Origin: Chaetoceros tenuissimus
Taxonomy: Eukaryota; Bacillariophyta; Thalassiosirophyceae; Chaetocerotales; Chaetocerotaceae
Assembly: GCA_021927905.1 (NCBI GenBank)
Contig: BLLK01000023.1
Coordinates: 496,001-560,000 of the forward strand
Reading direction: 5' to 3'
DNA length: 64,000 nucleotides
The position numbers and the translations under genes are program-made. The notes below the pieces were generated by a model. That model made no database searches, was not told the DNA's origin, and saw only the letters and a list, made by a program, of their open reading frames with translations. Every line of letters starts with the position of its first letter. Positions within the stretch are counted from its first letter, which is position 1. This document shows, piece after piece, positions 8,363-28,563 of the stretch.

Positions 8363-9223
8363 TCATTCACTCTTTCGGGTTTCAATAGCTTTCTTGAGAA
8401 GTTTGATACATTTCAGGAAAGGCGATAATTGTTCATGAGTTGCACCACATTTCATATCATCCTCATTTAATTTCTCAGCAAACTCTAAAACAGAGAAGGT
8501 ACCTTCGATATATTTACTCTTATGTGGATATGCACGCAACAAACCAATCCTAGCTGTATATAGTTTATCAGATGCGACTGTCGTATTTTCCAACAAGTAT
8601 TTGACGATGGTTGGGAAACCTCTACAAACAGCAGCAAGTAGACACCCCATTATTAATTTTCCACTACGATCATAAAATGCTTCCACATTGGGATCCGCAT
8701 TGTATTTTTCAATAAGCTCCTTGACACATGCCAAAATTACACCTTCTGTTACGCCTTTTGCACTGCAACAACTGACTAGAAAAGTGTCTCCACTTTCAGA
8801 TCTTTGATTAACATTGACTACAGGTCCATATTTCTTCATAATACCTCTCAAACGAGCCAAAGAGAGTGGCTTTGTAGGTTCTTCTTTCGTTGCTAGATCG
8901 TCAACTGCGTCCAGTGCCATCTCGGTTTGATCGTGAATATGAAGGTGTGCTCGCATCACTTCCTCTTTAAGTGAAAAGATGGTTCTTCTCAGGCGCTTGG
9001 AAGTTCTGCGGTTGCTGTAAGATCTATTCGAATTACTTGATCCTTTGTAGCCTTTGAGAACCAGTTCCCAGATTGGAGATGTAGCTGATACTAGACTGTC
9101 TGCAGCTGATCCCAATGGAGTGATTTGATGACAAAGGACTGATACGATGCTACGAGGTTCATCGACGAATAGCAACATGTTGTAAAATACATCATCTGGA
9201 AAAGAGAATAGAGTAGGTTCCAT
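8363..9223 (-). CDS. F-box-like / ankyrin-type protein
   Basis: A single-exon frame of 286 aa on the minus strand. The first 60 residues (FSFPDDVFYNMLLFVDEP, then a WELVLKGYKG block) resemble a degenerate F-box, which would bind SKP1. The second half has two poor ankyrin-like units, SGDTFLVSCCSAKGVTEG and GCLLAAVCRGFPTIVKYLLE. Between them is a basic Ser/Arg stretch that may be a nuclear signal. Diatoms carry many such F-box/ankyrin genes. The function is unproven; it could equally be a plain ankyrin protein. The ATG at 9223 is the first in frame. Confidence 0.65.
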   Translation of the reverse strand: MEPTLFSFPDDVFYNMLLFVDEPRSIVSVLCHQITPLGSAADSLVSATSPIWELVLKGYKGSSNSNRSYSNRRTSKRLRRTIFSLKEEVMRAHLHIHDQTEMALDAVDDLATKEEPTKPLSLARLRGIMKKYGPVVNVNQRSESGDTFLVSCCSAKGVTEGVILACVKELIEKYNADPNVEAFYDRSGKLIMGCLLAAVCRGFPTIVKYLLENTTVASDKLYTARIGLLRAYPHKSKYIEGTFSVLEFAEKLNEDDMKCGATHEQLSPFLKCIKLLKKAIETRKSE

Positions 9224-9515
9224 TGTAGAAGGTTTTGTCTTTGAAGGAATGTTTTTATTTTTCTATGGATGGAGTAGAATTTGTGTGCACTCGATGTACT
9301 TCGAACAGCTGCAAAAGTCAGTTTTTGACTATAATGACGGATATGGACTTGAGATTTCCTTTCAATTATCCAGTCAACACGAATTCGAAGTATGTTTGCC
9401 TTTCAGTCAGTATTTGTCTGATTGGAGCTGACTGAAAATTGACACGCCGCATAAGGAACGGGAGATTGAATGAGATTAAATCACTCGGCATATTCATTTT
9501 ATAGCACAGCATCTC

Positions 9516-10699
9516 ATGATGACTTCTTTAATATACAAACTAGAGCAACTTGATATCATGGAAAAGGCTTTCCATGCTTTGCAGAATGCTTGTGCACGCA
9601 AAGAAGAGGAATTTCATAGGAAATTTCAAGAATACTATGGACAGCACAACGAAGAACATTACATGCTGCCGATAGCATATGGACTGAACAGAATTTTGTT
9701 TCAACTTGAACCATTGGACCTCGAAAATGAAGAGCTGGTTCAAAAGTTGAGAGCATGGGTTGAACGGTACCCAATGGCACTCGGTGAATATGATGTAAAT
9801 GAACATAGCATCGCCGATGAAAATATGGTATATCTCACCAATTTCGATTCCCATTATGTCGTGCAATATTGGAAAAGAAATATGGTCTAATGCCTTTTCT
9901 CATTGAACTTAGAGAAGCATTCTTTAATGATGGTCTAAGAGGTGGATTACTACTTTCTGTGAACCATGATAATACCCCTTTTGAGAATGAGGCAGTCCGT
10001 GACCCAGACTTTTTCGTTCCCTGGGAATTTGATCGAATTCATCATTTAGATGCTCTTGTGCATCTCAGTCATGACGATGTTGATGAGTCAGAGCCTATTA
10101 AAGTTTTGGAATCTCTAAAGAATAAGAACATCTTAAAGGAGCGCGATGTTGAGGAGTATAATTTACTAACGAAGGCATGTGTACTAGGAGGCAAGGAAGC
10201 ACATGGAAGGTTCCATTTCTTGGTTGCATTTAATCCAGCTCCTTTATTTCGATTTGCAAGTGATGGAGATCTTGAAATACTAGATGATGAAAGCGACAAG
10301 AGAAATCGACTTTTAATTTATCTTGCTACTAGAGAAGTAGAATCCTTTGCAGTAGTTCTCACTACAACTCTCGATTTTTTCACCAGAGATTTGGGTTTGC
10401 TTTTACTAAAGGACTGCCTATCTGTGCAAGGAGTTCAAACTGAAGCAAATGCACAATTCATAACTGCGGTAAAAGCTCGCTATGGTTTGAATGTGGCTTG
10501 GACTGTAATTGAATGTTGTTTCCGATGCAATAGAAATCGAAACTACCTTTTTCTACTAGACAAAGAAAGAAGTATTTTTCCATTCATGCTAGCGATAGTA
10601 GGTTCTCACGAGGTATACAATGATGGAGATATCAAATTGACTTTACTCTATTACCTCATGCGTGAAGATTTGTCATGGTTGCATTCTGCTTTATCATGA
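9516..10699 (+). pseudogene. Array family copy 1, one frame interruption
   Basis: First member of an unrecognised family of which five copies lie in this window (see 20687 and 27334 for the intact forms). The first 110 codons (from MMTSLIYKLEQLD) hold the family's N-terminal helix and the WVERYPMALGEY block. The frame is lost near 9840-9850 and resumes one base out with LCRAILEKKYGLMPFLIE, then GLRGGLL, LLTKACVLGG, RFHFLVAFNP and the closing DGDIKLTLLYYLMREDLSW. No splice sites fit the break. Its last 210 bases and 3' flank were copied to 12826-13165. It is either recently inactivated or carries an assembly indel. Function unknown. Confidence 0.75.
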
Positions 10700-10926
10700 G
10701 CGAGTCAAGTCGTCTGGATAGAAAAGGGTGACTAAGCCTTACATCATTTTAGTTTCGTTCAGTCGGGAAATCTAGTTTCTACATTCCATATATTGAATAT
10801 TAGATTATTTTCATTTGTTTCAAAGAAGTAATAGTAGCAGTTAAGATGAAAAGATGAGGAGGAATGCAGATTAAACTAATGTGCAGCCGCAAATACAATA
10901 TTCTATAATTACACATACATGTGACT

Positions 10927-12465
10927 TTAGACAGGTTCTTCTACAGATCCACTCATCATTTCAGCAAGGCTATCATTCATCATTTTCCCTTCAGGGTCAT
11001 ATTTCTTCTGAAAATCCTTTAAAAAGTCAAGAGTTTCTTGTGAAAAGCCAGCCTTGGTGACATCGACAGCAAGCTTGTGGGGATGAGCAACACCACCTCG
11101 AGCAGTCATGAGTTCCTCAAAAGGCTTGGCAATTTTATCAAGCTCCTCTTGTCCAAGACCCTTGGGAGTGACAACATTCAAGTCAAACCAGACCACATCC
11201 CCAGCATGCGCTAAATGCGCGATTGCCTTGTCTTTGGGTGATGCCCGCAAGTGTATCTCTACAGTATATTCCACATGTTCAATAGCACGTGCAAGTAATG
11301 GCATAACTTCATTTGCTTTTTCAAAAGGAACAACATACTCCCATTCGGTATGATGCGGAGCAGGGTCATCAACGTATTGTCTGTAATATGTATCCACGAA
11401 AGCAACTACTTTGCAGAATTTTGGTGCCAACTTGTGAATGGCTTTTGGAAGAAAAGGTGATGCTTTGAACAGAAATACTCGTAGCAGACGATCCATGATT
11501 GCCGTTCGCCGGTCCTTTTCATATTCCTCAACTGACTTCTTTGCTAAATTCTACCAATTGAAAAACTTCATAGTCTCGACCTGGATAATTCCACCTTGCC
11601 ATCTGGTAATGATTACGTGTAAAAATATGAATTTATTATTGGCAGATATATAGAAACAAGATTGCATCATCTCATGAAACTTACAGAAAACAATGCACTG
11701 GATTCCCACCACTAGTTGAAATCAAAAGTGGATGGATCTTGAATTGGGGTTCGTTTCTCTTCAAGATAGTAAAATGGATCTAGCTCAAGTGTGACTTCGT
11801 AAATGATACCACCAATTCCAAAATTGACAGATTCCTCAGGACCGAGTTCAACGTCCTCTCCCTTGGCATTGATCATTTTGAACGATACAATTGAAGACGT
11901 GAAAGTGTCGAGTCTTCCTTGCCCCGTGGTCCCATGAGTGCCACCGCAGATGGCGCCCCCAATACTTTGACGATCATAGTTCCCCATGTTTTTGAGTGCC
12001 AAGCCCTTCTTTTCAAGGATGCGAATAGCATCTCGAATCTTGATTCCTGCTTCCACAGTGACAATATTCCCTTCAACTTTGATGACCTTGTTCATATTTT
12101 CAATGGAGATGAAAATACCTTCTGTTTCAAGCACGTTGCGAAACGAATGCCCGGATCCAATGCAGCGGAACTTGGAATTCTTGGCAACAAGATCTTTTTG
12201 GATAGCGAACTGGTTTTGGTGAAAACTCTTGATTTTTCTTATTGTGGAAGGGCTTTGGGATAATGCTTTTTGGGCGGCTTCCAAACCAGCGAGGCTGCTC
12301 GATGGGGTGATGATGCTCTACAATCTCGGCCATTCGGTCAATCGCTTCGTCGGCACTCATGCAACGAAAGAGGCGATGCCACAAATACATTAATCCGAAT
12401 TGAAACATCCATAGGATGAAGCGAATCCATTTGATGAATTCGGTGAAGCAATTTGTCTTGACCAT
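10927..12465 (-). pseudogene. Sugar-1,4-lactone oxidase (GULO/ALO-like), broken
   Basis: This is an FAD-linked aldonolactone oxidase/dehydrogenase, the enzyme type that makes ascorbate or its analogues from a sugar lactone. The N-terminus (MVKTNCFTEF) has a membrane-anchor-like segment. Then come the FAD-binding parts RWFGSRPKSIIPKP, FRCIGSGHSF and GGAICGGTHGTTG. The C-terminal part has the ALO-like PHHTEWEYVVPFEKA and YDPEGKMMNDSL. An intron appears to run from about 11683 (GTAAGT) to an acceptor near 11603. Three lesions are visible. One is an extra base in the CCC tract near 12250. The second is an in-frame TAG near 11715. The third is an indel near 11545 just before KSVEEYEKDRR. The usual C-terminal HWxK-like site reads AHPHKLA. 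A pseudogene is likely, though homopolymer errors could explain part of it. Confidence 0.7.
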
Positions 12466-12780
12466 TTTCTTGAGAGATTCAGTAAAACCAGCAGTGAGCA
12501 AAAGGATGTCAGCTCATTGTGATTTAACAAAGCAAGCAAAGATCGGAATTTATGGATAGAGTGAAGAACATTGTCAGATGATGATTTTGAGAAATAATGA
12601 AAAAAATGAGAAGCCCCTCTACCGAAGGGGTAAAAAATGAAAGATACTTTGATGATGACCCCCAAAAGATATACCTGCCATAGAACCGTTAGTGCTTCGG
12701 TCACTTTTGAAAAAGAATGGTGCTTCTATGTTATTCTTTGAAATGAATTCAAATAGCAAATAGTTCATCTTGAGTAAATA

Positions 12781-12822
12781 AATATTATATATATATATAT
12801 AATAAAAATATATGTATATATC
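12781..12822. repeat. AT-rich microsatellite
   Basis: A run of alternating TA (TATATATATATATA and variants) sits just before the duplicated 3' gene fragment. It may mark the left breakpoint of that duplication. Confidence 0.7.
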
Positions 12823-12825
12823 AGC

Positions 12826-13165
12826 GGTTTGAACATGGCTTGGACTGTAATTGAAGCTCACTTGATTGAAGGTTGTTTCTAATGTACGAGAAATCGAAAC
12901 GACCTATTTCTAATAGACAAAGACAGAAGAATTTTTTCATTTATGCTAGCGACAGTAGGTTCTTACGAGGTATACAATGATGGAGACATCAAGCTGACTT
13001 TACTCTATTACCTTATGCGCGACGATTTGTCATGGTTGCATTCTGCTTTGTCATGATCGTGTTAAAGTCGTCTGGGTACAAGGACAACCAAGCTTTACGC
13101 ATCATCTCAGTTTAGATCAATCGGGCATTATACTTTCTGCATTCTATAAGTAATGAACATATTTT
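12826..13165 (+). pseudogene. Duplicated 3' fragment of array copy 1
   Basis: About 230 bases here match the last 210 bases of the copy at 9516-10699, for example GTATACAATGATGGAGA.ATCAA and TTGTCATGGTTGCATTCTGC. The match continues into the 3' flank (AAGTCGTCTGG, then a weaker stretch to about 13165). No 5' part of the gene is present and the frame is not kept, with an early TAA and gaps. It is therefore a dead partial duplicate, most simply from unequal crossing-over. Divergence of roughly 15% by eye makes it older than the 20.7/22.9 kb pair. Confidence 0.8.
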
Positions 13166-13190
13166 TGAAAATAAAAAGAGAATAGAATTT

Positions 13191-13214
13191 GAGTCGGTAA
13201 ATAACGGTTAAAGC
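13191..13214 (+). promoter_or_regulatory. Shared upstream motif, copy 2
   Basis: Contains GTCGGTAAATAACGGTTA, identical over 24 bases to copy 4 at 20475-20498. It lies 121 bases before the ATG at 13312. Copies 2 and 4 could be identical simply because the genes are duplicates, but copies 1 and 3 stand before unrelated genes. Confidence 0.5.
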
Positions 13215-13311
13215 AAACTGCTTACTGCTTACTTTGGAAAATGGACATAATCATGTAAGGTAGACTAGATCTTTTATCTCATCTACAATATCATCAATAA
13301 TCGGTAAGAAG

Positions 13312-14814
13312 ATGCCGAGTCACTCTAACCTTTCTGGATCATCACGCGAGAATGATTCTTTGACTAACCAAGATACAACCAAAGAAGTGACCATGACTGC
13401 TACTGTTACTGATGGTACCACACATCCAAGAATGAAACCGCTTCTGCTGCTACTTGTCATACTGACGAAACAAAGTCAGATCAACAAGTTACAACTATTA
13501 TCACTCTAACGGAGAAACTAGATAGACTAGAGAATTTTGAAAAGTCTTTATTCGCACTCTCCAAGACTATCGAAACAAATAAGAGTTCATATAGAGAGGA
13601 TACTCCTGAGAACAATGACGAAGTCAACAACAGTGTTTCGTTCTATTTGAGTAAGTTCTTCATCAATTTAGAATCGAGCGATATTGAAGACGAGGAGCAG
13701 AAGGAGAGACTAGAGAGCTGGATCAACAAGTACCCTAAATCACTCGGAGCTATAAATTGGAACTATGTTGAGGGAGGGTATGAAGACTATGATCATAGTA
13801 CTGAGGAATATAGGAAAAAGGAGAAAAAACATCCATTTGTACTACGTGAGATTATACTCAAGAAGAAGTTTGAGCTTATTGAGTTCTTTGTAGAAATTGG
13901 GAAAGGATGGTTCAACGACAGTCTAAGAGGTGGATTACTGAAAGATCTAAGAAAGTCTAGATGGCAAGGTTTAGATTATGATGTGCTTAGCTTCTACTCG
14001 GAAAAAATTGGTCCAACAGCTCTAGACGTTCTAGTTTATGGTGGCTTTACTGATGCAGATGAATCTATTCCTATTCAAATCTTGACTGTTCTAAAAGACA
14101 AGGACCTTTTTCGGAAAGGCGATATTCAAAAATATGTTGTTGACAAAGGCTTGTTTGGCGAGAACCAATTCCGACGAAATTGAAACAGGGATTGCAAAGA
14201 AAAGATTTGAATATCTTCTTAGGATGAACCCACTAAGTTTACTCTATCCTACGACAAAAGGAGATTATATCATTTTTGCAGCAGAAATAAAAGATAGACA
14301 CATAAAGTTTTATGATCATGACCATCATAATGGGGAATGCATCCCAAACCATCATACTGAGGAGTACGTCGCAGATGGTGTAATTAGCAGAAGACGTGAT
14401 CGCAAAATGAAAGCATGGACTCCTCCACTGATGATATTTCTTGCTACTAGAGCGTTGGCGTATTTCGAAATCGCTCTCACCGCTGCCCTCAAAGTCTTTG
14501 GGAAAGAGTTGGGGTTACTCTTACTTCAGGACAAAAGCCGTTACCCTATAGTAAGCAATGCTGTACTACTAACGCATGTCAAGAGACGTTACGGTATCGA
14601 CAGGGCGTGGAATGTGGTCCAGAGAGCTTTTGAAGCTATACCGAATTACAATGTATTATTACAATTCAATAAGAAAAAGAATACCTTCCCATTCATGCTG
14701 GCTGCGAAATCATTTGTTCTATGCTGTGACGATGGTGATATCAAGTTGACCTTGTTGTATCATCTTCTTCGCAAGGACTTTTCATGGTTAGAGTCAGCTT
14801 CGCCATCAGCATAG
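13312..14814 (+). pseudogene. Array family copy 2, two frame interruptions
   Basis: Closest relative of the intact copy at 20687: both start M(P/S)(S/T)HSN.SGS..ENDSLT and share EKLDRLENFEKS, ETNKSSYREDTPENND, GPTALDVL, LLTKACLAR, YFEIALTAALKVFGKELGLL and KRRYGIDRAWNVV. The frame changes twice: near 13425-13432, before NETASAATCHTDETK, and near 14125-14135. At the second site, alignment with the intact copy shows a 2-base loss just before TTGTTGACAAAGGC. A 2-base gap away from a homopolymer points to real decay rather than only sequencing noise. Function unknown; see the intact copy for the domain description. Confidence 0.8.
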
Positions 14815-14819
14815 TATCA

Positions 14820-15115
14820 GTATGAGTATTTGCACTTCGAATATGGTTGAATCAGATTTTGGGAAGTAATATGATAAAGTCTGATCACTACCAAGCAAAC
14901 AATAGATCTTTTGGGGAATGATGTATTTGTAAATAGGCAGAATAAAATCGAATGGGTAGGTTTCATAAATAAGTTGTACTAGGATCATGTAAAAAAATGA
15001 GAATCAAGTAAATAAACTAGCAATATATTGTATATTCAATTTTTTATATTTATTTATCAAATATGAAACTATTTGCTATGAATTCATTGAAAAAGAAAAG
15101 ATAAATTGGTTCTAA
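14820..15115 (+). repeat. Duplicated 3' flank, unit a
   Basis: The downstream region of copy 2 (TTGGGAAGTAATATGATAAAGT.., ACCAAGCAAACAATAGATC.., GAATAAAATCGAATG..) recurs after copies 3 and 4 at 22200-22530 and 24085-24420. The duplication unit therefore included about 300 bases of 3' flank. Confidence 0.75.
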
Positions 15116-15130
15116 ATATTTTATGAAGTT

Positions 15131-15152
15131 GAGTCGTTAAATTACGGTTATA
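15131..15152 (+). promoter_or_regulatory. Shared upstream motif, copy 3
   Basis: Reads GAGTCGTTAAATTACGGTTA, 106 bases before the ERCC6L2-like ATG. It differs from copies 2 and 4 at two or three positions. The downstream gene is unrelated to the array family, which argues that the motif is a promoter element rather than a relic of duplication. Confidence 0.45.
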
Positions 15153-15236
15153 CATCTGACTGGGACTACGTACTGACCAACGCGGCCAAAATGAAAAAAA
15201 TGGAAGAAGCAATCATCGAATCCTTTTCCTTGCAAA

Positions 15237-18200
15237 ATGGAAGACTGGCAAAGGAGAAGACTTCAAAATGAACGAAGGAAAAAGAGAGATGAAGAACTCA
15301 AAAAGAAAAAGGAACAGGCCGGACTCCTCTCTTCTTCTAGATCCACCCAACCTAAATCTAAACAAAGTAGCATGGATCAGAAACGACTCAAGGAGGCTAA
15401 AGAGAATGCGGCAGCTGATAGAGGTTTACGATTGATTCGAGAAATGAATTTAAAAGAAATGAATTTGAAAATGAAGAGGACTTGTTTTGTCGATTCAAGT
15501 ACTTTATTTTCATCGAGTCCAAGAGATTCTTTCAAGTCTTTAAAAAAGCCATTGCCGAAAAAGGCATCTCCATTACATTCGTTTTACAGTTCTGATTCCG
15601 ATCAAGAATTTACACGCCAATTGGAGGAGAAAAAGAGCAATCCGAGAAATTCTTTGAAATTGTTAAAAAAGCCATCACCGAAAAAGCCAAAGAATTCATT
15701 TCTACACTATGAATCCGATGAAGAATATGCCATGCTGGGTGCCAAGATTGAACAAGAAAAAATAGAGAAACAATTAGTTTCAAATGTAGATTGGAAGGAA
15801 ACAAAATCTAAAAAGCAACCGAAGTCGAAGCGAAAGTCGGTGCCTAAAAAGAACTTTGATTCGGATGAGGATAGTATAGACAGTATGGATCGGAAACCTA
15901 GAGCCAAGCCCGACTTGTTCAAGGGACGTCAGAAGCACGATTCGGATAGTTATGACTCGATGTCTGAAAATGATATTCCAATGAAATCAATTACGGTGCA
16001 CAAGAAACTTGATGATGATGATTCGTACGATGGTCAAGAAGATATGGCGAAACAAAAGAGGCATGTTTCACCGAATGAATCTTTTAAAAGAAAATCTCCA
16101 AAGGCACGTACTAGACAAGTTCGACGAGAGGTATCTTCGGATGATTCCGATACTGAAGAGGATATGATGGCTTATTCTCGAAGAATGCGCAATCTCGACA
16201 AGAAAGCGCAATATTCTTCTAGTGAAGGTGAAGAAGAGGAGGTGCAAAGTGAACAGAGTCGATCTCCAAAGAATCAAGGTGGTAGAGACAAGAAAGAACA
16301 CAAGCGTAAATCATCATCTAATAGAAGCTCCAAGAGCAAGAGTAAACCTTCTCCAGTGAAACAAAAGCCAGATGATTTATGGAGTGATGACGATGTTGTC
16401 TCCTCTGCAAGTTCAATTCAAGACGACAAGTCAACATCGGCCATGAATGACTGGGATGCGGCTGTTGCATATATCAACAAATCGCCATCACCTGTCAAGA
16501 AGAAAAGGAACAAGAAACAAACAAAGAAAAAAGTTCGACCTTCCAAAGAATTTGACTATGATTCTGAAGTGGATGAGTTTGCAGATGAGGCTGCTTTGGA
16601 GCAAGAGTTGAAACCGCACTTTGAGAATCCAAAGTGGTTGTCGGAATGTATTCCTTTGCCGTTGAAGAATCCACTGGCCGAACAAGACGGGGAGGGAGAT
16701 CAAGAACAAGGTGGAGATGCAGCTGCAGATATGAAGCACTCGATTCCAGCTTCCATCAATCGCTACCTCAAAGTTTATCAGCAGGAAGGAGTACGATTTA
16801 TTTATAAACTTTTGATGCAAGGATATGGATCGGTATTGGGAGATGATATGGGTAAGTACTAAGAAGAGTACCTTATGCACTATCTATGCAAGTTGGAAAC
16901 GAATGTGCTAACAACAACATACTCAAAGGTCTAGGCAAGACTGTACAAATTATTGCACTAATTGCTGCTTTGCAAAATAAAAAGGGAAACAAGTGTGATT
17001 TAAAAGAGATTCGGGAAAGACAAGAAGCAATTATGAATTACTTTGCAAAAGTGAAGGCGGATCAAGAGGATACTTTATTGCGTGGGGGGATAATTGCGAA
17101 AACGACGGATGCTCTTCCAGAGCTTCCATACTCTCCAATTCTAGTCATTGTACCTCCACTTGTATTCACAAATTGGGAAAAAGAGTTCAAAACATGGGGA
17201 TACTTTGCAGTGGCTTCTTATAGAGATGCTAATCGAGCAATTGCAATTGAACGGATTTCCTGTGGAATGGAAGACATTATGCTCTGTGGCAGTTCCATGC
17301 TGAAGAAGGAAAAGGACTTGAATGAGTTGTTGACCATTCAGTGGAGCCTCATTATCGTTGATGAGTTTCATGACTATAAGAACCATACAACTAAATTATC
17401 CAAGGCTCTGGAAACACTTCGTAATGCTTCACAGTGTCCAATTGTTGGGATGACAGGTACTATCATGTCAAATGAATATCAAGAGCTCTACAATCTTATA
17501 GATATTGTGCAGCCTGGACTTCTCGGAGAGCGGACCGATTTTAGACGAGACTATGCTAGACCCCTTCATCTTCTTCGACCGAAAGACTCCAAGCCTGATG
17601 TACTTGCATTGGGAAACGCTCGCAATGAAGAACTGAAGACTGCATTAAAGAATGTGTTTCTTAAAAGAGAAAAATCAATGTACCTTGAGGACGATCTCCC
17701 TACAAAGTAAGTGAAAAATGTTTGATGAAACAGTTGATTTATTTTCAATCCCATAATTTGGCTAATAATCTTTTGAAAAGAAAACAAAAGATTGTCTTTT
17801 GCGAACTGAGTGAATTGCAAAAGGAACTTTATCAGCATATCATTTACAATCTCACAGAGTATCAGTTTCTTCGAACATGTAATATGCCCTGTGATTGTGG
17901 GGTGAATAGAAAGTTTTTCTTGAAATTAAGAAGCCTTCCGACGAAAGCTGTCCAAATTGAGTTTACAAGACAGAATAAAGAGAAAATAACTTTAAGAAAA
18001 GAATGCTGTTACACTGTTCCTGAAGGTGATGATGTCGTGTTTTGGCCAGCTCAACACGAGGATGATAAAATATGCCAGACGTGCCCAGGTTGTATCACTC
18101 TACCAGCTCTACAGAAACTGAATCTATTGGCTTCCCATGCCTCTTTCTTACAAGTCGATAAAGATCCAGATCATGTACGTAAAGAGAGTGATAAGAAGAA

Positions 18201-20085
18201 ACTCAAGAAAGATTTAGCGTTTGCCAAGGTAGCAATCCCGAAGCACTTGCTAAAATTCATGCCCGGCAAGTCTTATACTCGAAAGACTTCTATTTTCGAT
18301 GATCATAGTTTACTGAGTGGCAAAATGAAAGTGTTATCCTACTTCCTTAGAAAGGTGAGCAAGTATGAATTGCATTTAAAAGAGTTCACACCTCCAAATT
18401 CTCAATTTTTTTATTTCCTTTCATAGTTTGAAAAGCGAGGGGATCGAGTTCTTTTATTCTCGTACTCGACCGTGACTTTAGATATGATTCAACATTTCAT
18501 CAAAGAGAAAGGATACTCTCACTTGCGCATAGACGGTTCAGTAAAAAATAAGCAGGATTTGGTAGACAAGTATCAAGAAAATGACGATATCTTTTTGTTC
18601 CTCATTTCCACTAAAGCTGGCGGAGTGGGACTCAACCTGACCGCAGCGGTGAGTAGTTATTTTAAAGTGAAATTACTACTTCATTCAATTGTGAATCATC
18701 TCATAGTTCAAACTTTCTCCACAGAACAAAGTAATTATTTTCGATGTTGGTTGGAATCCAAGTTCAGATGAACAAGCACAGGATAGATCTTATCGAATTG
18801 GACAAGATAAAGACGTCGAGGTCATTCGTTTCGTTTCCAAAGGTACCATCGAGGAGATAAAGTATATGAGGCAGTTGTATAAGGTGCATTTGAAACAGCA
18901 AACGCTAGCTTCGGACGAGTACACTGCTAATGAACCACCACAAATTTTCCGTGGTGTCGATAAAGACAAGAATAGAAAAGGAGGTGAGTTTGGTGTACAC
19001 ACAATTATGATTATTGGCAAGCATATTCCAAAGCTGACAATCTTCCGGTAGAACTATTTGGAATTGAGAACTTACTCAAGTTCAAGGATGGGTCTTTTAT
19101 GGAGGACTTTTGGAAAGCTGCCGAGGCTCCGAAAAGAAGTGAAAATGATAAGGAAGCGATTGACGAAGAAGATATTGTTGCTGCGATGAATGGCGCCAAA
19201 GAGAACGGAATGGAAAAGCTTTTCGAGGATGAAGACGGAACAGATGATATTGAAAATGTCGTCAACAATTACTTTGAAAAGCATAAAACGTTGGAACATG
19301 TTGATGACAGCGAAGAGGAAAATGAGTTTGAAGGTGTCAACTATGAAGATTTCCTTCGAAAGGATAAGGGTGGAGCGGCATTACAAGAAGGTGATCAGGG
19401 ATTTTACGAAGAGATGGGTGCATTCTCTCAAAATGTTGCAGATGCCGAGATGGAATTTGTCGACGACAATGAAAACTCGGAGAGTGTAGAAAAAGAGACA
19501 AGAACAGAACGAGAGATAAATGAAGTCAAATTAGAATCCAAAGAAAATGATTCAAGAATCCAAGTAAAAACAGAATTTGATACGAGCGAGATGAATACTC
19601 AAGAGTGCCAAACTAGTCTGCTCGCAGAGATTGACTCCTCCATTGGATATCAGTACACACCACAATGCAGTCAAGAAGGGAAGAAGTTGCTGTCGTCACT
19701 GACGAGCGCTGAAGAGTCCAAAATAAAAGAGAAGTCTTGTAATACAGAGACCAGTATAGAGAAAGAGGCTCACGAACAAACAGTAGCTTCAAAGAGAGGC
19801 CATGAAATCAAAGGTTTTCCTCGGCAACAGGACAATGAAAAGAAGAGTAAAAAGAGTAGTGGTAATCCCTTCTTGGAGAAGGAAAATGAGGGGTTGGTAA
19901 ATTCTGAAAATACTGTGGATGATGATATCCAGACCAAGACTCCTAAGATTACGTTCACATCTAGTCCATCGAGAAGATCTGCAAAACCTACAAAGGAGGC
20001 TCTTGGAAAAAAGCGAAAAGCAGAGACAAAGTCATTCTCGTCAAAGAAATTTCTCCACATACCATCCTACTGGAAGGGAAAGTAG
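15237..20085 (+). CDS. ERCC6L2-like SNF2-family DNA translocase, 6 exons
   Basis: Exons 15237-16851, 16929-17706, 17781-18354, 18427-18648, 18725-18983 and 19052-20085 join in frame to 1493 aa. The introns are 68-77 nt. The first 500 residues are a charged Ser/Lys/Asp-rich tail with two related PRDSFKSLKKPLPKK and PRNSLKLLKKPSPKK blocks. The ATPase follows: DDMGLGKT (motif I), VDEFH in place of DEAH (motif II), GMTGTIMSN (III), then helicase-C with STKAGGVGLNL and QAQDRSYRIGQ (VI). Between the lobes lies a Cys-rich insert (CDCGVNRKFF..KICQTCPGC), as in ERCC6L2 and plant SWITCH2. ERCC6L2 acts in DNA break and transcription-linked repair in the nucleus. The C-terminal 330 residues are acidic. 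A short upstream ORF from 15191 overlaps the start in another frame and may damp translation. The SNF2 call is certain; the ERCC6L2 subfamily is likely. Confidence 0.85.
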
Positions 20086-20474
20086 AGTAAGGTATGCTGC
20101 ATCACACTGCAAGACAGAGTAGCCATTGCTGTTATTTATATTGTAAAGTAAAGTACTTGTAACTCTACTCGATCTTACCAAGACATTGCTCGGCTTTAAG
20201 TGCTTTGTACCTCCGAAGCTAGTTCTCACTGACAGGCCACTTAGCTGTACATCTTTTGCAGCAGTAATAATGTCTTGACAAGAAACCATCAGTCCATCAT
20301 TGCGTCCTCCACTGATATTTGCTTTTTCAGCTGCTTTTCTATTGAGCAGCAGTATTGTACTTGATCTTTTCTCCCTCTTGCAAGACTTAGATATATCATC
20401 CAGGGCGAAGAAGAGCCGGATCTGAGAGATGAGCCTTTTTATGAATGAAATTAAAATTTCGAAAAAGGGAAGTT
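20086..20474. other. Intergenic, nothing clear
   Basis: 3' region of the SNF2 gene and 5' region of the next array copy. No open frame of note and no repeat other than the motif starting at 20475. Confidence 0.4.
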
Positions 20475-20498
20475 GAGTCGGTAAATAACGGTTAAAGC
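20475..20498 (+). promoter_or_regulatory. Shared upstream motif, copy 4
   Basis: Contains GTCGGTAAATAACGGTTA, 212 bases before the ATG at 20687. It matches copy 2 over its full length, while the DNA between motif and start codon differs in length by about 90 bases. Confidence 0.5.
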
Positions 20499-20686
20499 CG
20501 CCTGTGTTGTTGACACACTAATAGCTAGACACAGCCAAACCGCAAATAAATTCTAAATGAACTAGTGAACTCCAACTGAAACTTCTCTCAATTATTCTAT
20601 CACAATTCTCAAAGTTGAACACTCTTACTCGTAGAATTGCTTAGACTATCATCTCTAATTACAATTTTTCAATCATTGGTCAGGAG

Positions 20687-22195
20687 ATGTCGACTCACTC
20701 TAATCATTCTGGATCGTTACATGAGAATGATTCTTTGACTCGTCAAGACACCGTACCTGCTGTTGCTACCATCACTTCGTCTGCTGCCACTAGTAGTAGT
20801 CCTACTAACGATACAGAGAATGATCAGCAAATCACAACCACGACCAGCCTCAAGGAGAAACTAGATAGACTAGAGAATTTTGAAAAGTCTTCATTTGCAC
20901 TCTCAAAGACTATCGAAACAAACAAGAGTTCGTACAGAGAGGATACTCCCGAGAACAATGACGAAATCAACGACAGTGTTTCATTCTATTTGAGTAAGTT
21001 CTTACTCGATCTCGAAGCGAGCGATCTCGAAGATAAGGAGCAGAAGAAGAGACTGAAGAAGTGGATCGCCAAGTATCCTAAATCACTCGGAGCTATTTAT
21101 TGGAACTATGTTGCAGGACCTGACTATGATGGCTATGATGAAGATGACTATGATAACATGGCTGAGGTTCTTCGAGAGAAACATGAGAAAGACGAGAAAA
21201 AATATCCATTTCAACTACGTGAAGCTTTATACAAAAAGAAATTTGAGCTAATTGTGTTCTTTGTAGAAATTGGGCAGTGGTGGTTCGGGAGTCTAAAAGG
21301 TGGATTACTAAAAGATCTAAGAAAGTCTGGTTGGGATGGTTTAGATTCTATTCGTACACTTGGCTTTTACTTGGACAAAGTGCCTGGTCCAACAGCTCTA
21401 GATGTTCTAATTTATGGTGATCTTACTGAAGGAGATGAATCCATCCCTATTCAAATCTTGAATGCTCTAAAAGATAAGGAACTCTTTCGGAAATGCGATA
21501 TTAAAAAACAGAAGTTGTTGACAAAGGCATGTTTGGCGAGAAATGTCGAGTTCGACACCTGCAAAATTGAAACAGGGATTGCAAAGAAAAGATTAGAATA
21601 TCTTGTCAAGATGTACCCACAAGGTTTACTCAATGACACAACAAAAGGCAATTATGACATTTGTGCTAAAGAAATACACGATAGATGCATTATGTTTGTT
21701 GATCACGACCGTCAGAATGACGAATACGTTGCAAATCATCATACAAAGGAATACGTCGCAGATGGAAGACTTGACTGGCGTCAGAGCAAAGTATGGACTC
21801 CTCCACTGATGATATTTCTTGCTACTAGAGCTTTGGTGTACTTTGAAATTGCTCTCGCCACTGCCCTCAAAGTCTTTGGGAAAGAGTTAGGGTTGCTCTT
21901 ACTTCAGGACAATAGCAAAGAGCCTTTGGTAAATAATGCTGTTCTACTAACGCATGTCAAGAGACGTTATGGTATCGACAGGGCGTGGAACGTTGTCCAG
22001 ACAGCTTTTGAAGCTATGCCGAATTGCAATGTATTACTACAATTCGATAAGGAAAAGAATGCCTTTCCATTCATGCTGGCTGCAGAGTCACTTGCGTTCT
22101 CTCACGATGATGGTGATATCAAGTTGACCTTGTTGTATTATCTTCTTCGTGAAGATTTGTCATGGTCCGATGTGTTTTCTCAGCAGTCAGTATAG
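20687..22195 (+). CDS. Array family copy 3, intact, unrecognised helical protein
   Basis: An uninterrupted single exon of 502 aa, the full-length reference for the family. I do not know the function. Residues 1-60 are Ser/Thr-rich and disordered. From about 65 there are helical blocks in a fixed order: EKLDRLENFEKS, YLSKFLLDLEASDLEDKEQK, WIAKYPKSLGAIYWNYV, YPFQLREALYKKKFELIVFF, LKGGLLKDL, GPTALDVLIYG, LLTKACLAR, TPPLMIFLATRALVYFEIAL, LGLLLLQDNS, HVKRRYGIDRAWNVV and FPFMLAAESLAF, ending DGDIKLTLLYYLLREDLSW. The repeated short helix pairs look like a degenerate ankyrin- or HEAT-like solenoid. No signal peptide or membrane span is seen. The start is supported by the near-identical start of copy 2. 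Confidence 0.8.
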   Translation: MSTHSNHSGSLHENDSLTRQDTVPAVATITSSAATSSSPTNDTENDQQITTTTSLKEKLDRLENFEKSSFALSKTIETNKSSYREDTPENNDEINDSVSFYLSKFLLDLEASDLEDKEQKKRLKKWIAKYPKSLGAIYWNYVAGPDYDGYDEDDYDNMAEVLREKHEKDEKKYPFQLREALYKKKFELIVFFVEIGQWWFGSLKGGLLKDLRKSGWDGLDSIRTLGFYLDKVPGPTALDVLIYGDLTEGDESIPIQILNALKDKELFRKCDIKKQKLLTKACLARNVEFDTCKIETGIAKKRLEYLVKMYPQGLLNDTTKGNYDICAKEIHDRCIMFVDHDRQNDEYVANHHTKEYVADGRLDWRQSKVWTPPLMIFLATRALVYFEIALATALKVFGKELGLLLLQDNSKEPLVNNAVLLTHVKRRYGIDRAWNVVQTAFEAMPNCNVLLQFDKEKNAFPFMLAAESLAFSHDDGDIKLTLLYYLLREDLSWSDVFSQQSV

Positions 22196-22199
22196 TTTT

Positions 22200-22530
22200 G
22201 CTGAGTAGTATTATACAATATGGCTCAATCAGATGAAAAATTACATATTTTGGGAAATAATATGATAAAGTCTGATCGGACATTATGCTTTGCTCAATGT
22301 TATTCTTACCAAGCAAGCAATAGATCTTTAGGGGAAGATGTAATTGTAAACAGACAGAATAAAATCAAATTCAAATGAGTAGGCTGAATAGAATAGAAAT
22401 TGTACTAGGATAATGTAAAAATGAGAATCAAGAAAACAAAGTAGCATTTATATTATATATTCAATTTTATACATTTATTCACTCAAGATGAACTTTTTGC
22501 TATTTGAAAAATCATTAAAGAATAAGATAG
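22200..22530 (+). repeat. Duplicated 3' flank, unit b
   Basis: Second copy of the downstream repeat: TTTTGGGAAATAATATGATA.., ACCAAGCAAGCAATAGATC.., GAATCAAGAAAACAAAG... It aligns with 14820-15115 and 24085-24420. Confidence 0.75.
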
Positions 22531-22873
22531 AACCTCCATTTTTTTCAAAAGTGGCAGAAGCTTCAACGGTTTTTGGCGGGTATATCTTTGCCTAATTTGA
22601 TCTTTTGGAAATGGGATTGGATTACGCACGACTTACCTTCAATCTCAAATCTTATGATGAGCCAAGCGATAGCGGATGAGCACTGTTTTGATCCATCAAC
22701 CATCATACTACACTTGAACGAAAGAGACGCCGGCCTCTCTTCTCTCTCCCATATCCGCCAATGCAAAAGTAACCCTGATTCTTCAAGCGCATAGACTTGT
22801 TCGGATAGATAGAGTTCAACTTACTTATCTTCATCTCCCATTACAAAGGTTGCTTTGTACAGTGTCGATCGAT
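22531..22873. other. Intergenic with no supported gene
   Basis: The stretch before array copy 4. Two short overlapping open frames here (about 22563-22794) are on opposite strands of the same bases and show no family signal. This 5' region is unlike that of copies 2 and 3. Confidence 0.4.
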
Positions 22874-24078
22874 ATGAGTTCCCTAATCGAGAAACTAGAA
22901 GATCTAGAAAGCTTTGAGAAATCATCTGACAAATTGACGCAAAAAATTGGTTGCAGTTCCTATCAAATGGGGCAAACCATATCTCACTGTCTATATCATG
23001 TTCTACAGCAAATAGAAGAGACTGATATCGAAGATCAACAACACAAACAAAAATTGGAGAATTGGATACAACGATATCCTCAGGCATTAGGAATTGCCAA
23101 TGATGAACATTCTTATGAAGAACATAGTTATGAAGATATTGATACATTTCCATTTTTACTTTGCACTCTAATTCTCAAGAGAAAATTCAAGTTGCTACCT
23201 TTTTTCATTGAAAATGGAATGGATTATTTCAGCGATGATCTTAGAGGAGGACTACTACAAGATTTGTTCAGATATGATGAGTTTGAAGAATTCTTCGATG
23301 ATGACCCATTTCATTAATGTTAGACATGGAGCTTTGGAAGTATAGTGGAATCACTCCTCTGGCATGTCTTGTTTGCTTTCATCATGAAGATGCTGAAGAG
23401 ACAGAGCTTGTTGAAGTCTTGGATACTCTAAAAAGCATGGACGTCTTTCAAAGACACGATGTTCAAGAGCTGAAATTGTTGACAAAATGCTGCCTTCTGA
23501 TGGGACTAAAAGCTCGGAACAGATTTCATTTTCTAGTAGAATTCGATCCAGAATCGTTGCTTGTAGAAACTGACCCCGATTCCTATAAAATGTCCTATGA
23601 TGTAGATATCGTTTATGAATACGAGGATGATGAAAACTTTGCAGATGAATATACATCGTTTGCATGGATTACGAGAAGTCTTTCTTGGAAACCTCAGTTG
23701 ATATTCTTTTTGGTGACGAGAAGATATACATATTTTGAAATCACTCTCACCGCTGCCCTCAAAGTGTTCGGGAAAGAGTTGGGATTGCTCTTACTTCAGG
23801 ACAATAGCAAAAAGCCTATGGTAAACGATGCTGTTCTATTGACGCATGTCAAGAGACGCTACGGTATTGATAGAGCATGGGACGTAATTGAGACTTCATT
23901 TGGAGACACGCCAAAGCGACCTGCTTTATTTAGCGTAGACAATGAAAAGGGAATCTATCCATTCATGCTGGCTGCGGAGTCGCTTGCACTCAGTTGTGAT
24001 GATGCTGATATCAAATTGACCTTACTGTATCATCTTCTTCGTGAGGATTTGTCATGGTCTGATGTGTTTTCTCCGTAA
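22874..24078 (+). pseudogene. Array family copy 4, chimeric, one frame interruption
   Basis: The chosen ATG (MSSLIEKLEDLESFEKS) is at 22874. The N-terminal 140 residues (CLYHVLQQIEETDIEDQQHK, FPFLLCTLILKRKFKLLPFF, GLLQDL) are closest to the 27334 copy. The C-terminal 150 residues (TLTAALKVFGKELGLLLLQD, AVLLTHVKRRYGIDRAW, YPFMLAAESLALS) and the 3' flank are closest to the 20687 copy. The frame changes at 23315-23319, where TAA and a following ATG overlap as TAATG; the second half then reads LDMELWKYSGITPLACLVCF. No intron fits. It is a gene-conversion chimera, inactive if the indel is real. Function unknown. Confidence 0.75.
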
Positions 24079-24084
24079 TCAGCA

Positions 24085-24420
24085 TCGTATTGATCAGCGT
24101 GATATTTGGTACTTCGAATACAGTCGAATCAGATGAAAAGCCACATATTTTGGGAAGAAATATGATATAGTCTGTCAAAACATTACGCTTTACTCACTCT
24201 TATTTTTACCAAGCAAACAATAGATTTTTTGGGGAAAATGTAATTGTAAACAGGAGAATAAATCGAATGAGTAGGATACATTAGAATAGAAATTGTACTA
24301 TGGAAAAAAAAAGAATCAAGTAAATGAACTAGCATCATAAATATATTCGATTTTCTATGTAGGCAATTACTCAAGTTGAATTATTTGCTATAAGAATTCA
24401 TTTAAAAAAATAAGACACAG
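24085..24420 (+). repeat. Duplicated 3' flank, unit c
   Basis: Third copy of the downstream repeat after copy 4 (TTTTGGGAAGAAATATGATA.., ACCAAGCAAACAATAGATT.., GAATCAAGTAAATGAACTAGC). It supports transfer of the 3' half plus flank from the copy 2/3 lineage. Confidence 0.75.
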
Positions 24421-24761
24421 TAGAACTAAGCGAAAAATTATCTTGGTAGTTGCAGCAGCTGCATTTACCGACATTCTTTCAACATCATGCTATGACTGGA
24501 ACTGCGATTGTAGTATTATTTATGCAAATATTCTTTGCAGCTTCAGGAGCATAGGAATTGAATCAACAAAAGACTAGGTACTTCATCTCTCCTCAAATGA
24601 TGAAGATCATTACCATTGCAACATACAATAGGATCAGAGACTAGCTACTCATTTGGTTTCGTTGAGAAGATAGGAACCCCTATCAGATTAGAACTTTTCT
24701 TTGTTGTTTGCAAAGAGCATCTATTAGGTGCTAGATGATTCATTATCAAAGACTGAAGAAC

Positions 24762-24931
24762 CTCTATCAGTGTGCTGAAGAGCCCCTATGAGCGAGGAAC
24801 CCCTATCAGAATGCTGAAGAGCCCCTATGAGCAAGGAACCCCTATCAGAATGCTGAAGAGCCCCTATGAGCAAGGAACCCCTATCAGTATGCTGAAGAGC
24901 CCCTATGAGCTAGGAACCCCTATCAGAATGC
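24762..24931 (+). repeat. 39-bp coding minisatellite, about 4 units
   Basis: Four near-perfect 39-base units, each reading MLKSPYEQGTPIR (13 codons), contain the paired sub-repeat CCCCTATGAGC / CCCCTATCAG. The unit length is a multiple of three, so an open frame of 84 codons (24772-25026) runs through. No signal peptide, splice partner or family supports it as a gene. A related GAACCCCTATCAGA sits earlier at about 24670. Confidence 0.85.
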
Positions 24932-25164
24932 TCATGCAGAGGAAGATGCTGGAAGACTTTCCTCATTTTCGAAGAGTCTTATTTTCGAAAAGTGAAGAAC
25001 GATTAAAAGTTGCAGATTGGCAGTAGATTTGTCATTTTGTGAATATCTTTACGGGTCATAGTTGACAGGAGTTGTAAGTTTTAGTTTTGTATACTGAACA
25101 AAGTACATACATTTGTTTCCTATTAAGAATTCGGAGTAATTCAATACTTATCGAGAAGGGTCCC

Positions 25165-25812
25165 ATGAAAGTGGAATTGAGGAAAATTGGAAAAAGCTCC
25201 TCTTTCACGTCTCATTTTGCTTCAGAACATCTCATAATATTCCAAGTTTCATTTTTTGAAGCAAAAACAAAACACGTAAGTTTATCACTCTAATCAGATT
25301 TTTAAGCATCTTGATCTTTTGTATGAGGATTGTACACGCCAATCTTCACCAGAAGAGCCAAATCCGTGCAAACATGTCAACTGCAGCAAGAGAGGAAAAT
25401 GCCAAGTACTCACCTTCACCGAAGCCGAATGCAAATGTGAGAATACCTTCATCCAATCCAATGATAAGTTGGATTGTATCTGTCCAAGCGACCATGAGTT
25501 CAATGCCAATACAAACCGCTGCTTTCCAATCACCAAATCACCTTCCAAGTCTCCAACTTCTTTTCCGTCTGTGACATCTTCTGCATCCCCTTCTCAAGAA
25601 CCATCCAAAGAAGTGGAAAAGAATGAAGATCAATGCGAGGATGATTTGAGCAGCACTTTCACACTTGACAATGGAAAGGTTGCAAATTGCAAGTGGATCC
25701 TCAAGAACAAGAAGCGTAGATCCGTTAGAAAGGCAAAGTACTGTGTTCGTGAAGAAATCATGAAGAAATCATGAAAGTGTGTCCTGTATCTTGTTGTACT
25801 TGCTCTGCGTAA
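25165..25812 (+). pseudogene. Cys-rich (EGF-like) probably secreted protein, frameshifted near the end
   Basis: The main exon (about 25299 on) encodes an EGF-like Cys pattern (NPCKHVNCSKRGKCQ, ECKCENTF, CICPSDHEFN). Then comes a diatom-style Ser/Pro linker (KSPSKSPTSFPS), then a small domain CEDDLSSTFTLDNGKVANCKW ending KYCVREEIM. Such linker-plus-Cys-domain proteins are usually secreted or wall-linked. A possible first exon (ATG at 25165, donor GTAAGT near 25279) joins in phase but has a poor signal peptide. At 25750-25771 the 11-mer GAAGAAATCAT is present twice in tandem. With a single copy the frame would read on through KVCPVSCCTCSA to TAA at 25812. As it stands it ends at 25774, losing the last Cys pairs. 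Confidence 0.6.
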
Positions 25813-26279
25813 GGTGCCTGAGTAGATGAGGTCATGATCTTCATGGTTGTTGCAGATATGCAACTGTTGACCATGAGATCAGAGCTTTCGAGTATAATGA
25901 AATTTAAATATTTGTGAAAGAAAAAAGTGTGGGCTATGAATCAAGTTAAAAATATGATTTAGGAGGACGAGGGAAAAGGAGGAAAAAAAATACCAGTAGG
26001 TGATAAACGTATAAAGCGTCGTCGTTGTCAATTTTATTGTAGTATATACTGTTTCCCATTTTCCTTATGGAATAAAAGAGAGTTATAATTTGAAACTATT
26101 CTCGTAATTATGATCTGTCCTTTCGTATTGTTTTTCAAGTCTTTTTCTTACTCGAATGCACTTTTTACAAGTGGACCGTCGATGAATAAGATGAAAATCT
26201 ACAACTGTACTATGCCAATCTCTCCGCATATATTCTAAATTATAGATATAGTAATCACCTTTCTTTCAACTGCGTCATC
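25813..26279. other. Intergenic, AT-rich
   Basis: No supported gene, RNA or repeat was found. This is the 3' region of the Cys-rich gene and, on the other strand, of the remnant at 26280. Confidence 0.35.
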
Positions 26280-26641
26280 CTACATGTTCATTGCAATGAT
26301 TGCGTCAATATCTAGAATGGATTTATGCGAATATGACTTCTCTTTATCAAATATAGAAAATCTTTGCAACCTATATTCTTCATTATCTTCATCGCTAGTC
26401 ATGAGTAGAGTAATGTTGTGACCTAGACCATTTACTTGTATGCTCGTGACACGGTCATTTATCGATTCTCCTCGTCGTATATGTAAATTGCTAAAATAAA
26501 AATGATCAAGCGCAAGAAGTCTTTGAATCCTATCTTCAAGCTCCTTCTTCGTGACTTTTAATTTTTTTTATCAACATCATCATTGGTATAGACACAACCT
26601 CTACATTGCTCATCCGTTTGTTTATAAGAAGTGGTTTCATA
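26280..26641 (-). pseudogene. Unrecognised gene remnant or partial exon
   Basis: On the minus strand an open stretch of about 95 codons without a start codon reads KVTKKELEDRIQRLLALDHF, later HIRRGESINDRVTSIQVNGL and YRLQRFSIFDKEK, to a TAG at 26280. Just upstream, past a run of eight A, the frame one base over reads TTSYKQTDEQCRGCVYTNDD. One missing A would link the two. An AG before the upstream part could be an acceptor. Composition looks coding, but no family is recognised and the 5' end is not visible. It could be a terminal exon of a decayed gene. Confidence 0.35.
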
Positions 26642-27333
26642 CTAGCTAGATACCAGCCAGTCCAGCCACTTGCTTCTCTCGCTCAAGAATGAAATATCAT
26701 CGGCCATAATCTCAAAGAAGAATCGATAAATGTAAAGCTAGAGTAGAACTCATTATCCTTGCTATCTCTTTAGTCAATTCATCATAGATACGAAAGAATA
26801 TTTACATCAGTGCAGAATGAAAAAGATTGATACATGAAAAGAGATGTGCAATGAAAATTCTTTTTCGTTGTCTTTTTCTTCAAATGAATGGTCACACGAA
26901 GCAATCATTGAATATTGAATATTTTGTACAGACACTCTAGTTTTCTCACCCCCCTTCTCGTAATCTTTCTTTCATCGGATCTTTCACAGTAGTACCTGGT
27001 ACCTAGCTAGAGTAGCAACATCGCAACATCGCAACATCGCAACATCTTAATCTGTTTTAAATGATGACTTCCCAGTTTTGGTATTATTGCTATGAATCAA
27101 GTTTAGTTCAGGGTTTACTACGTGATGCGCTGGTTGAAGGACTCGGTTGCATTCTCAACGAGAGATGACAGAGTGAAAGAGCATTTCCAGAAAATCTGTC
27201 TGTTCATCTTTGTTTCGTGAGAGAGATTTGGACAGCGTGAAATTTTGTGATTGGCTGGAAAAAGTTGCAGTTTACTATTTCCAGTCATTATAAATCGAAT
27301 AGGTACTTGAATTGAATCATATCAGCGACCACC
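26642..27333. other. Intergenic before array copy 5
   Basis: No gene seen. It contains the 9-bp microsatellite listed at 27011-27046. The 5' flank is not shared with the other array copies, and the Myb-like motif is absent. Confidence 0.4.
27011..27046 (+). repeat. 9-bp microsatellite (GCAACATCN type)
   Basis: Four tandem units of CAACATCGC lie just upstream of the array copy at 27334. Confidence 0.8.
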
Positions 27334-28563
27334 ATGGCTTCCCTTTCTGAGAAACTTTTCCATCTTTCAAACTTGGAAAATTCATATATTGCAATTCTAC
27401 AAGCTGTTGGTTCAGATGATCCGTCAGTTCAGGTTGGATACAAAGATGATTACCATCACCATTTGAATCATGATCTCGACAACCGATGCATTTACGATGA
27501 TCACTACAGAACTATATCTTTTTGTCTACAGCAAATCTTGCTGAATCTTGAAGATGAAGATATTGAAAATCAGCATCAGAAGCAAGAATTGAAGCTATGG
27601 ATTGAGCGGTATCCATTATGTCTTGGGATTCTCAACTGGGAAGATTATGATGATAATGATGAAGGCCACCTAGCAAGTCAAAGATTTCCATTTCTTCTAT
27701 GTGAGATCATTTTAAAGAAGAAATTTAGACTATTGCCATTTCTTATTGAAGCAGGAACGTATTACTTTGTTTATGGGCTTCGAGGTGGATTACTGCAAAA
27801 ACTGTCTCGTTTTGATGATATTTACCGAGGATATCATGAAGATGCACACGAAGTCTTTCCTCATGACTTAGTTTATCCAGAAATGACAGTTCTAGACGCA
27901 ATTACATGCTTCGACTATGATGATTCCATAGCCATTGAGGTTTTATCTAGCTTGAAAGATATGGGCGACCTTCAAAGGAATGACGTCCAAGAAGAAAATT
28001 TACTGTCAAAAACTTTTTTCTTCGGAGGGACAGGTATGCAAGAAAGATTCAACTTTCTTGTTGAAATGAATCCAGAGGCTTTACTTAAAGAAGTAGATGA
28101 AGCTGATAAAGATGCTTTTGATATTGTCCATGCTGGCGATGGTAAATTCTACAATATGTACAATGATTGGACTCCAGCACTGATAATAATGTTGGCAGCA
28201 TGTGAGGCTATTAATTTTGGAGTAGTTTTTCGGGCAAGTTTAAAGGTATTTCCAAGAGAGTTAGGCTTGCTCTTTATTCAAGCAAAAGACAATAGTAGTT
28301 ATCCTTCTTGGAAGGGCAGAGCAGTGCTATTAAGTTATGTCAATGAATGGGTTGGTATTCATGATGCTTGGTTTTTCATTGAATACACCTTTGTAGAAAT
28401 GACAAATCGACATGCTTTATTTAGCTTAGATCACGAAAAGGAGATCTATCCATTTATGCCGATTGCGGAATCACTTGGTGTATGTTGCAACGATGGTGAT
28501 ATCAAGTTGACCTTGTTGTATTATCTTCTTCGTGAAGATTTGTCATGGTCTGATGCGCTTTAA
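27334..28563 (+). CDS. Array family copy 5, intact
   Basis: A single exon of 409 aa from an ATG in a good context (ACCACCATGG). It lacks the 60-residue Ser/Thr N-terminal extension of copy 3 and starts directly in the first helix (MASLSEKLFHLSNLENS). The family blocks follow in order: CLQQILLNLEDEDIENQHQK, WIERYPLCLGILNW, FPFLLCEIILKKKFRLLPFL, GLRGGLLQKL, LLSKTFFFGG, RFNFLVEMNPEALL, ALIIMLAACEAINFGVVF, PRELGLLF and IYPFMPIAESLGV. The end DGDIKLTLLYYLLREDLSWS is nearly base-for-base that of copy 3, although the rest is much more diverged, suggesting a short conversion tract. Function unknown; a helical solenoid is likely. Confidence 0.8.
   Translation: MASLSEKLFHLSNLENSYIAILQAVGSDDPSVQVGYKDDYHHHLNHDLDNRCIYDDHYRTISFCLQQILLNLEDEDIENQHQKQELKLWIERYPLCLGILNWEDYDDNDEGHLASQRFPFLLCEIILKKKFRLLPFLIEAGTYYFVYGLRGGLLQKLSRFDDIYRGYHEDAHEVFPHDLVYPEMTVLDAITCFDYDDSIAIEVLSSLKDMGDLQRNDVQEENLLSKTFFFGGTGMQERFNFLVEMNPEALLKEVDEADKDAFDIVHAGDGKFYNMYNDWTPALIIMLAACEAINFGVVFRASLKVFPRELGLLFIQAKDNSSYPSWKGRAVLLSYVNEWVGIHDAWFFIEYTFVEMTNRHALFSLDHEKEIYPFMPIAESLGVCCNDGDIKLTLLYYLLREDLSWSDAL

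Follow-up and report, generated by a model that had tools for sequence, protein, structure and literature searches.

The array and its copies

The 64,000-nucleotide stretch of the diatom Chaetoceros tenuissimus analysed here (contig BLLK01000023.1, positions 496,001 to 560,000; "the window" below) carries five copies and one 3' fragment of an unnamed gene family, all on the forward strand between positions 9507 and 28560 (Table 1). Together they represent one local, tandemly arranged branch of a family that numbers about a hundred or more genes in the same genome. In tblastn searches of the window with copies C and F, the main pieces of the copies were recovered with expect values (E) from 1e-11 to 0 and the short N-terminal stub of copy B with E 4.7e-4. 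The open reading frames (ORFs) agree with this layout, which a first-pass annotation of the sequence had correctly described as a one-strand series over about 19 kb. Its statement that two copies are intact and three interrupted at different places also holds: C and F are whole and A, B, and D are frame-broken, to which we add that copy B has two frame breaks and not one. The motifs by which the family had been recognised (an EKL helix, W-x4-YP, GLRGGLL, LLTKAC, PFMLAA, and DGDIKLTLLYYLLREDLSW) are present in the alignment, and domain matches identify genes lying among the copies, such as an oxidase and a SNF2-type helicase, as unrelated to them. Copies B and C share 71-73% amino acid identity. 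The 3' fragment is truly decayed; its translation, judged by eye, most resembles the end of copy A.

Table 1. Family copies, shared tracts, intervening genes, and the F-box-bearing relatives. Positions are those of the window unless a locus is named.
Feature	Position	Strand	Observations
Copy A, family gene	9516-10699	+	One frame break at ~9.80-9.84 kb (tblastn, ORF listing)
3' fragment	12826-13035	+	One internal stop (translation); tblastn E 2.6e-12
Copy B, sister of C	13312-14814	+	Frame breaks at ~13.41-13.44 kb and ~14.13 kb (tblastn, ORFs, tree)
SNF2-type helicase gene	Between copies B and C
Copy C	20687-22195	+	Whole open frame, 502 amino acids
59-nt tract in copy C	22109-22167	+	Identical to copy F tract; likely gene conversion
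Copy D	22874-24078	+	One frame break at ~23.30-23.34 kb
Copy F	27334-28563	+	Whole open frame, 409 amino acids; structure predicted
Partner 59-nt tract in copy F	28492-28550	+	Identical to copy C tract
Oxidase with FAD-binding and ALO domains	Between family copies	-
F-box fusion genes, tandem neighbours on contig C34	L054:1473-3848 and L076:110-2452	-	792 and 781 amino acids

The wider family in the genome

The array had been taken to be the family itself, a view that searches of the organism's own genome (41,027,912 bases in 68 contigs) overturned. Searched with copies C and F, the genome yielded the array plus places on eight further contigs; two of the relatives found there, taken as new queries, gave 38 and 108 matches, 11 of the 108 rows with a stop. 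Merged, the results amount to at least 120 places on 18 contigs, 114 of them outside the window array; 98 of the 114 are at least 900 bp long, and 12 of these 98 contain a stop. The count is a lower bound, as one of the F-box fusion genes described below is absent from the 108 rows though it adjoins a listed one. Places no more than 250 bases apart on one strand were merged, and a frame-shifted gene may be tallied as a single long place. The count excludes two rows of the 38-match search lying over the query gene itself in different frames, as well as six of the 15 rows of one window-copy search, which lie inside the window and duplicate listed copies; the weakest rows counted (E 1e-4 to 9e-4) are less certain members. 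The proteins are mostly 350-540 amino acids long, and the largest array packs 26 family places into 64 kb of a single strand (C13:721717-785607).

Profile-profile comparisons place the window branch within this family. It matches the L032 branch with E 3.4e-20 over 248 columns and the L014 branch with E 3.9e-22 over 196 columns, and these two match each other with E 1.5e-34. In a tree of 58 rows, which contains one gene twice (L018 and L057), the five window rows (two whole copies and three pieces) fall on one side of a branch with a Shimodaira-Hasegawa-like approximate likelihood ratio test (SH-aLRT) value of 97. The description of the locus as a dispersed tandem array is thus upheld by a one-strand cluster forming one clade, in which copies differ in age, some are broken, and one fragment is decayed. 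Searches with a few short peptide patterns detected no relatives in viral contigs or in bacterial and archaeal genome contigs.

Selection, frame breaks, and probable exchange between copies

The ratio of nonsynonymous to synonymous substitution rates (dN/dS) between window copies lies at 0.19-0.39 wherever synonymous divergence (dS) is finite, which holds for 12 of 15 comparisons; the values are rough because dS mostly exceeds 1 there, and the remaining three comparisons are saturated in dS. The best dated pair, B and C, has 0.32-0.34 synonymous differences and a dN/dS of 0.39 whichever side of the break is taken. In the large branch of the family the median dN/dS is 0.21 and the maximum 0.49, dS being finite for 34 of the 35 pairs. 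Selection is therefore purifying, in the window as in the large branch. The first-pass suggestion of a fast-evolving role, if meant in an adaptive sense, does not survive these values, and adaptive diversification as a general driver is rejected, as even the maximum in the large branch carries no sign of general positive selection.

The frame breaks could in principle be introns. The SNF2-type gene provides a local standard: all five of its frame changes can be explained by GT-AG introns of 77, 74, 72, 76, and 68 nt with the donors GTAAGT, GTAAGT, GTGAGC, GTGAGT, and GTGAGT, respectively. Most of these junctions had several candidates, and the chosen ones rebuild helicase motifs such as GDDMGLGKT. 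At the four breaks of the family copies, no intron candidate with such a donor was found in the 180-210 bp searched around each; ordinary introns were therefore rejected and the breaks are interpreted as indels that disrupt the frame in the assembly. A 50-nt stretch in copy A came closest; its donor is weak, and splicing it out would delete conserved residues.

Are the broken copies pseudogenes? Their reading frames are disrupted in the assembly, but neither the dN/dS values nor the stop-free pieces of A, B, and D indicate a loss of constraint, although a recent loss would leave no trace. The four pieces tested (211-288 amino acids, those of copy B being 211 and 225) contain no stop codons, whereas under neutral simulation of the same pieces 48-57% of runs acquired a stop at 2% substitutions per site, and 81-86% did so at 5%. 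With copy D as outgroup, nonsynonymous and synonymous changes on the branch to copy B number 47:26 (two rows summed), whereas a ratio of 3.6:1 would be expected in the absence of constraint; with copy F as outgroup the counts are 17:17 and 30:16. Because the pieces still look constrained and lack stops, the breaks either arose recently, are allelic, or stem from assembly errors. "Mostly frame-interrupted", the first-pass wording, is thus true of the assembly but does not demonstrate long-dead copies.

In the living cell, copies A, B, and D may all be whole, the breaks being assembly errors or alleles of one haplotype. The genome report (PMC8613185) describes an assembly built with Nanopore and MiSeq data, the strain being 1.56% heterozygous; the window apparently derives from that assembly. 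The stop-free pieces, their low dN/dS where it is finite, and the excess of synonymous changes on the copy B branch are what this explanation would lead one to expect. However, copy B has two separate breaks, the fragment upstream of it is decayed beyond doubt, and the 12 stop-containing places among the 98 long ones elsewhere indicate that loss, or error, is common in the family. We regard wholly intact copies as a tentative possibility, one we lean away from without dismissing it. The opposite extreme, an array that is a functionless relic, would account for three broken copies out of five and a decayed fragment, and the broken share exceeds that of stop-containing long places elsewhere (3/5 vs. 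12/98, Fisher p 0.02). Measured against all outside places that are short or contain a stop (28 of 114, including partial matches to genes that are possibly whole), the excess loses significance (p 0.11), and the whole copies C and F differ with a dN/dS of 0.28 over 382 codons, a rough value at a dS of 1.8. A relic is thus very unlikely.

Some copies appear to have exchanged sequence. Copies C and F are 57% identical overall, yet share an identical run of 59 nt, a length reached in none of 2000 codon-column shuffles. Copies B and F share a run of 32 nt, likewise reached in 0/2000. Among the 13 pairs tested only these two stand out in this way, the other 11 runs being reached in 6 to 1480 of 2000 shuffles. 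As local protein conservation also favours a long run in this test, codon identities are given as well: codons for the same residue are identical at 18 of 19 positions inside the C/F tract and 67 of 130 outside it, and at 10 of 10 inside the B/F tract and 31 of 67 outside. The tracts are likely the product of short gene conversion at the 3' end. If so, the C-terminal block DGDIKLTLLYYLLREDLSW, a defining motif of the first-pass annotation, would be partly homogenised and its weight as a family signature inflated. Beyond the genes, the 3' flanks of B, C, and D (14812-15160, 22193-22720, and 24076-24500) are 76-79% alike over 220-310 bp; the duplicated unit therefore extends past the coding sequence.

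Fold, F-box relatives, and likely function

The first-pass annotation could not name the family, and neither could the curated libraries searched: the window copies stay below every Pfam cut-off. Apart from F-box, a Pfam scan of 40 members returned single-member matches only (E 0.0025 or worse), and the single NCBIfam match among the 40 (E 0.0085) is taken as chance. Ankyrin repeats (PF12796 Ank_2, PF00023 Ank) did not exceed the curated Pfam cut-off in the members scanned; the best Ank_2 match reached E 0.031 in one of 40 members, and Ank_3 scored 12.5 bits in one, against a cut-off of 22.3. The predicted structure of copy F is all-helical and composed of helical hairpins; a second predicted model was poorer than the first. 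A Foldseek search of the predicted model against PDB and BFVD found nothing at E <= 0.001. With the 40-member profile, ankyrin chains made up 13 of 15 matches in PDB (6.1e-5). This profile and that of the large branch each matched ankyrin tiles from the same genome weakly, at ~2e-4, and the large-branch profile matched these tiles far better than reversed and shuffled controls. The window branch alone and the L014 branch alone showed no profile kinship to ankyrin.

Together, the predicted model and the profile matches weakly suggest that the family is a strongly diverged ankyrin-type solenoid. Like ankyrin-repeat proteins, it has helical hairpins in the model, and repeat spacing and hydrophobic pattern appear similar by eye. 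Unlike them, no canonical TPLH motif was seen in the window copies, and among the listed Ank_2 matches of the genome (168 in total) none was seen, by eye, on a member place. Alternatively, the same family could have another alpha-solenoid fold (HEAT/ARM/PUF-like) or a distinct helical fold without kinship to ankyrin, and might still bind protein or RNA. The predominance of ankyrin chains in the PDB matches and the preference of the large-branch profile over its controls make this rather unlikely. Ankyrin-repeat genes have been described in diatoms: according to the genome report (PMC8613185), C. tenuissimus surpasses three other diatoms in the abundance of the ankyrin domain, and a further study names dAnk proteins in connection with frustule formation (PMC11151724). 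The present genes resemble these in belonging to the same organism group and in being expanded helical-repeat genes, but the diatom ankyrin genes carry a recognised ankyrin domain, whereas the domain models run here miss this family.

Ankyrin matches also occur next to the array. Upstream of it, on the reverse strand, lies an Ank_2 match over the cut-off (39.6 bits; 5136-5378, C17:501136-501378), and an ORF head-to-head with copy A (8363-9262, reverse strand) has an ankyrin match below the cut-off (E 0.0044). The start of this ORF is F-box-like by eye only and has no Pfam F-box match.

A hint at function comes from two relatives in tandem on contig C34 (Table 1), in which a whole family repeat domain is joined to an F-box (scores of 28.6 and 30.8 bits against a cut-off of 24.3) and to an additional C-terminal part that matches nothing in Pfam. 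In this they resemble F-box proteins with repeat domains for substrate binding; the window copies, in contrast, have no F-box over the Pfam cut-off, and of the 47 distinct proteins or pieces from the family that were scanned, the 45 besides the C34 pair lack one as well. F-box proteins have SKP1 as their partner, and 0.27 kb beyond copy F, on the reverse strand, lies a SKP1-family dimerisation domain over the cut-off (PF01466, 28829-29137, E 1.5e-7). On domain content, a ubiquitin ligase link is likely for at least the two C34 relatives. Such a link might extend to the superfamily, which would then consist mainly of F-box-linked substrate receptors of ubiquitin ligases, comparable to the F-box families that have expanded in plants and nematodes. 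The C34 fusions and the SKP1-family ORF speak for this generalisation. Yet that pair alone among the 47 carries an F-box, and the SKP1-family neighbour may be there by chance, which leaves it improbable.

Protein binding would be the most likely job of the family. Taken whole, our preferred reading, for which we see roughly even chances, is that the array is a tandem branch of a large family of all-helical solenoids, of diverged ankyrin type, that act as intracellular protein-binding adaptors. The stacked helical hairpins would hold a partner protein, and the F-box fused to them in at least two relatives would pass this partner on to an SCF ubiquitin ligase. New copies would come from tandem duplication and swap short stretches through gene conversion; purifying selection maintains them, and frame-breaking indels would occasionally remove one.

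No description naming this family was found among the titles and abstract openings surveyed, and a supplementary orthogroup table could still hold it. The family is new, yet of a known kind. If the reading is correct, about 100 of the 18,705 genes predicted for C. tenuissimus, a figure given in the genome report (PMC8613185), belong to one family missed by the domain models run, and counts of repeat proteins in diatoms may therefore be too low. The family would also serve as a test set for array growth, tract exchange, and decay in a diatom, with the two F-box fusions as a direct handle on what its proteins bind. Far more speculatively, and with very little confidence, one may imagine an unrecognised repertoire of ~100 solenoid recognition proteins, partly coupled to ubiquitin ligase by way of F-boxes, with which a bloom-forming diatom, maintaining them in tandem arrays that turn over, would recognise variable targets such as viral or rival-cell proteins; the purifying selection seen throughout the coding sequences speaks against a simple arms race.

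Between copies D and F, a 39-bp unit is tandemly repeated 4.5 times with 94% matches (24758-24932). The guanine-plus-cytosine content of the window is 39.5%.
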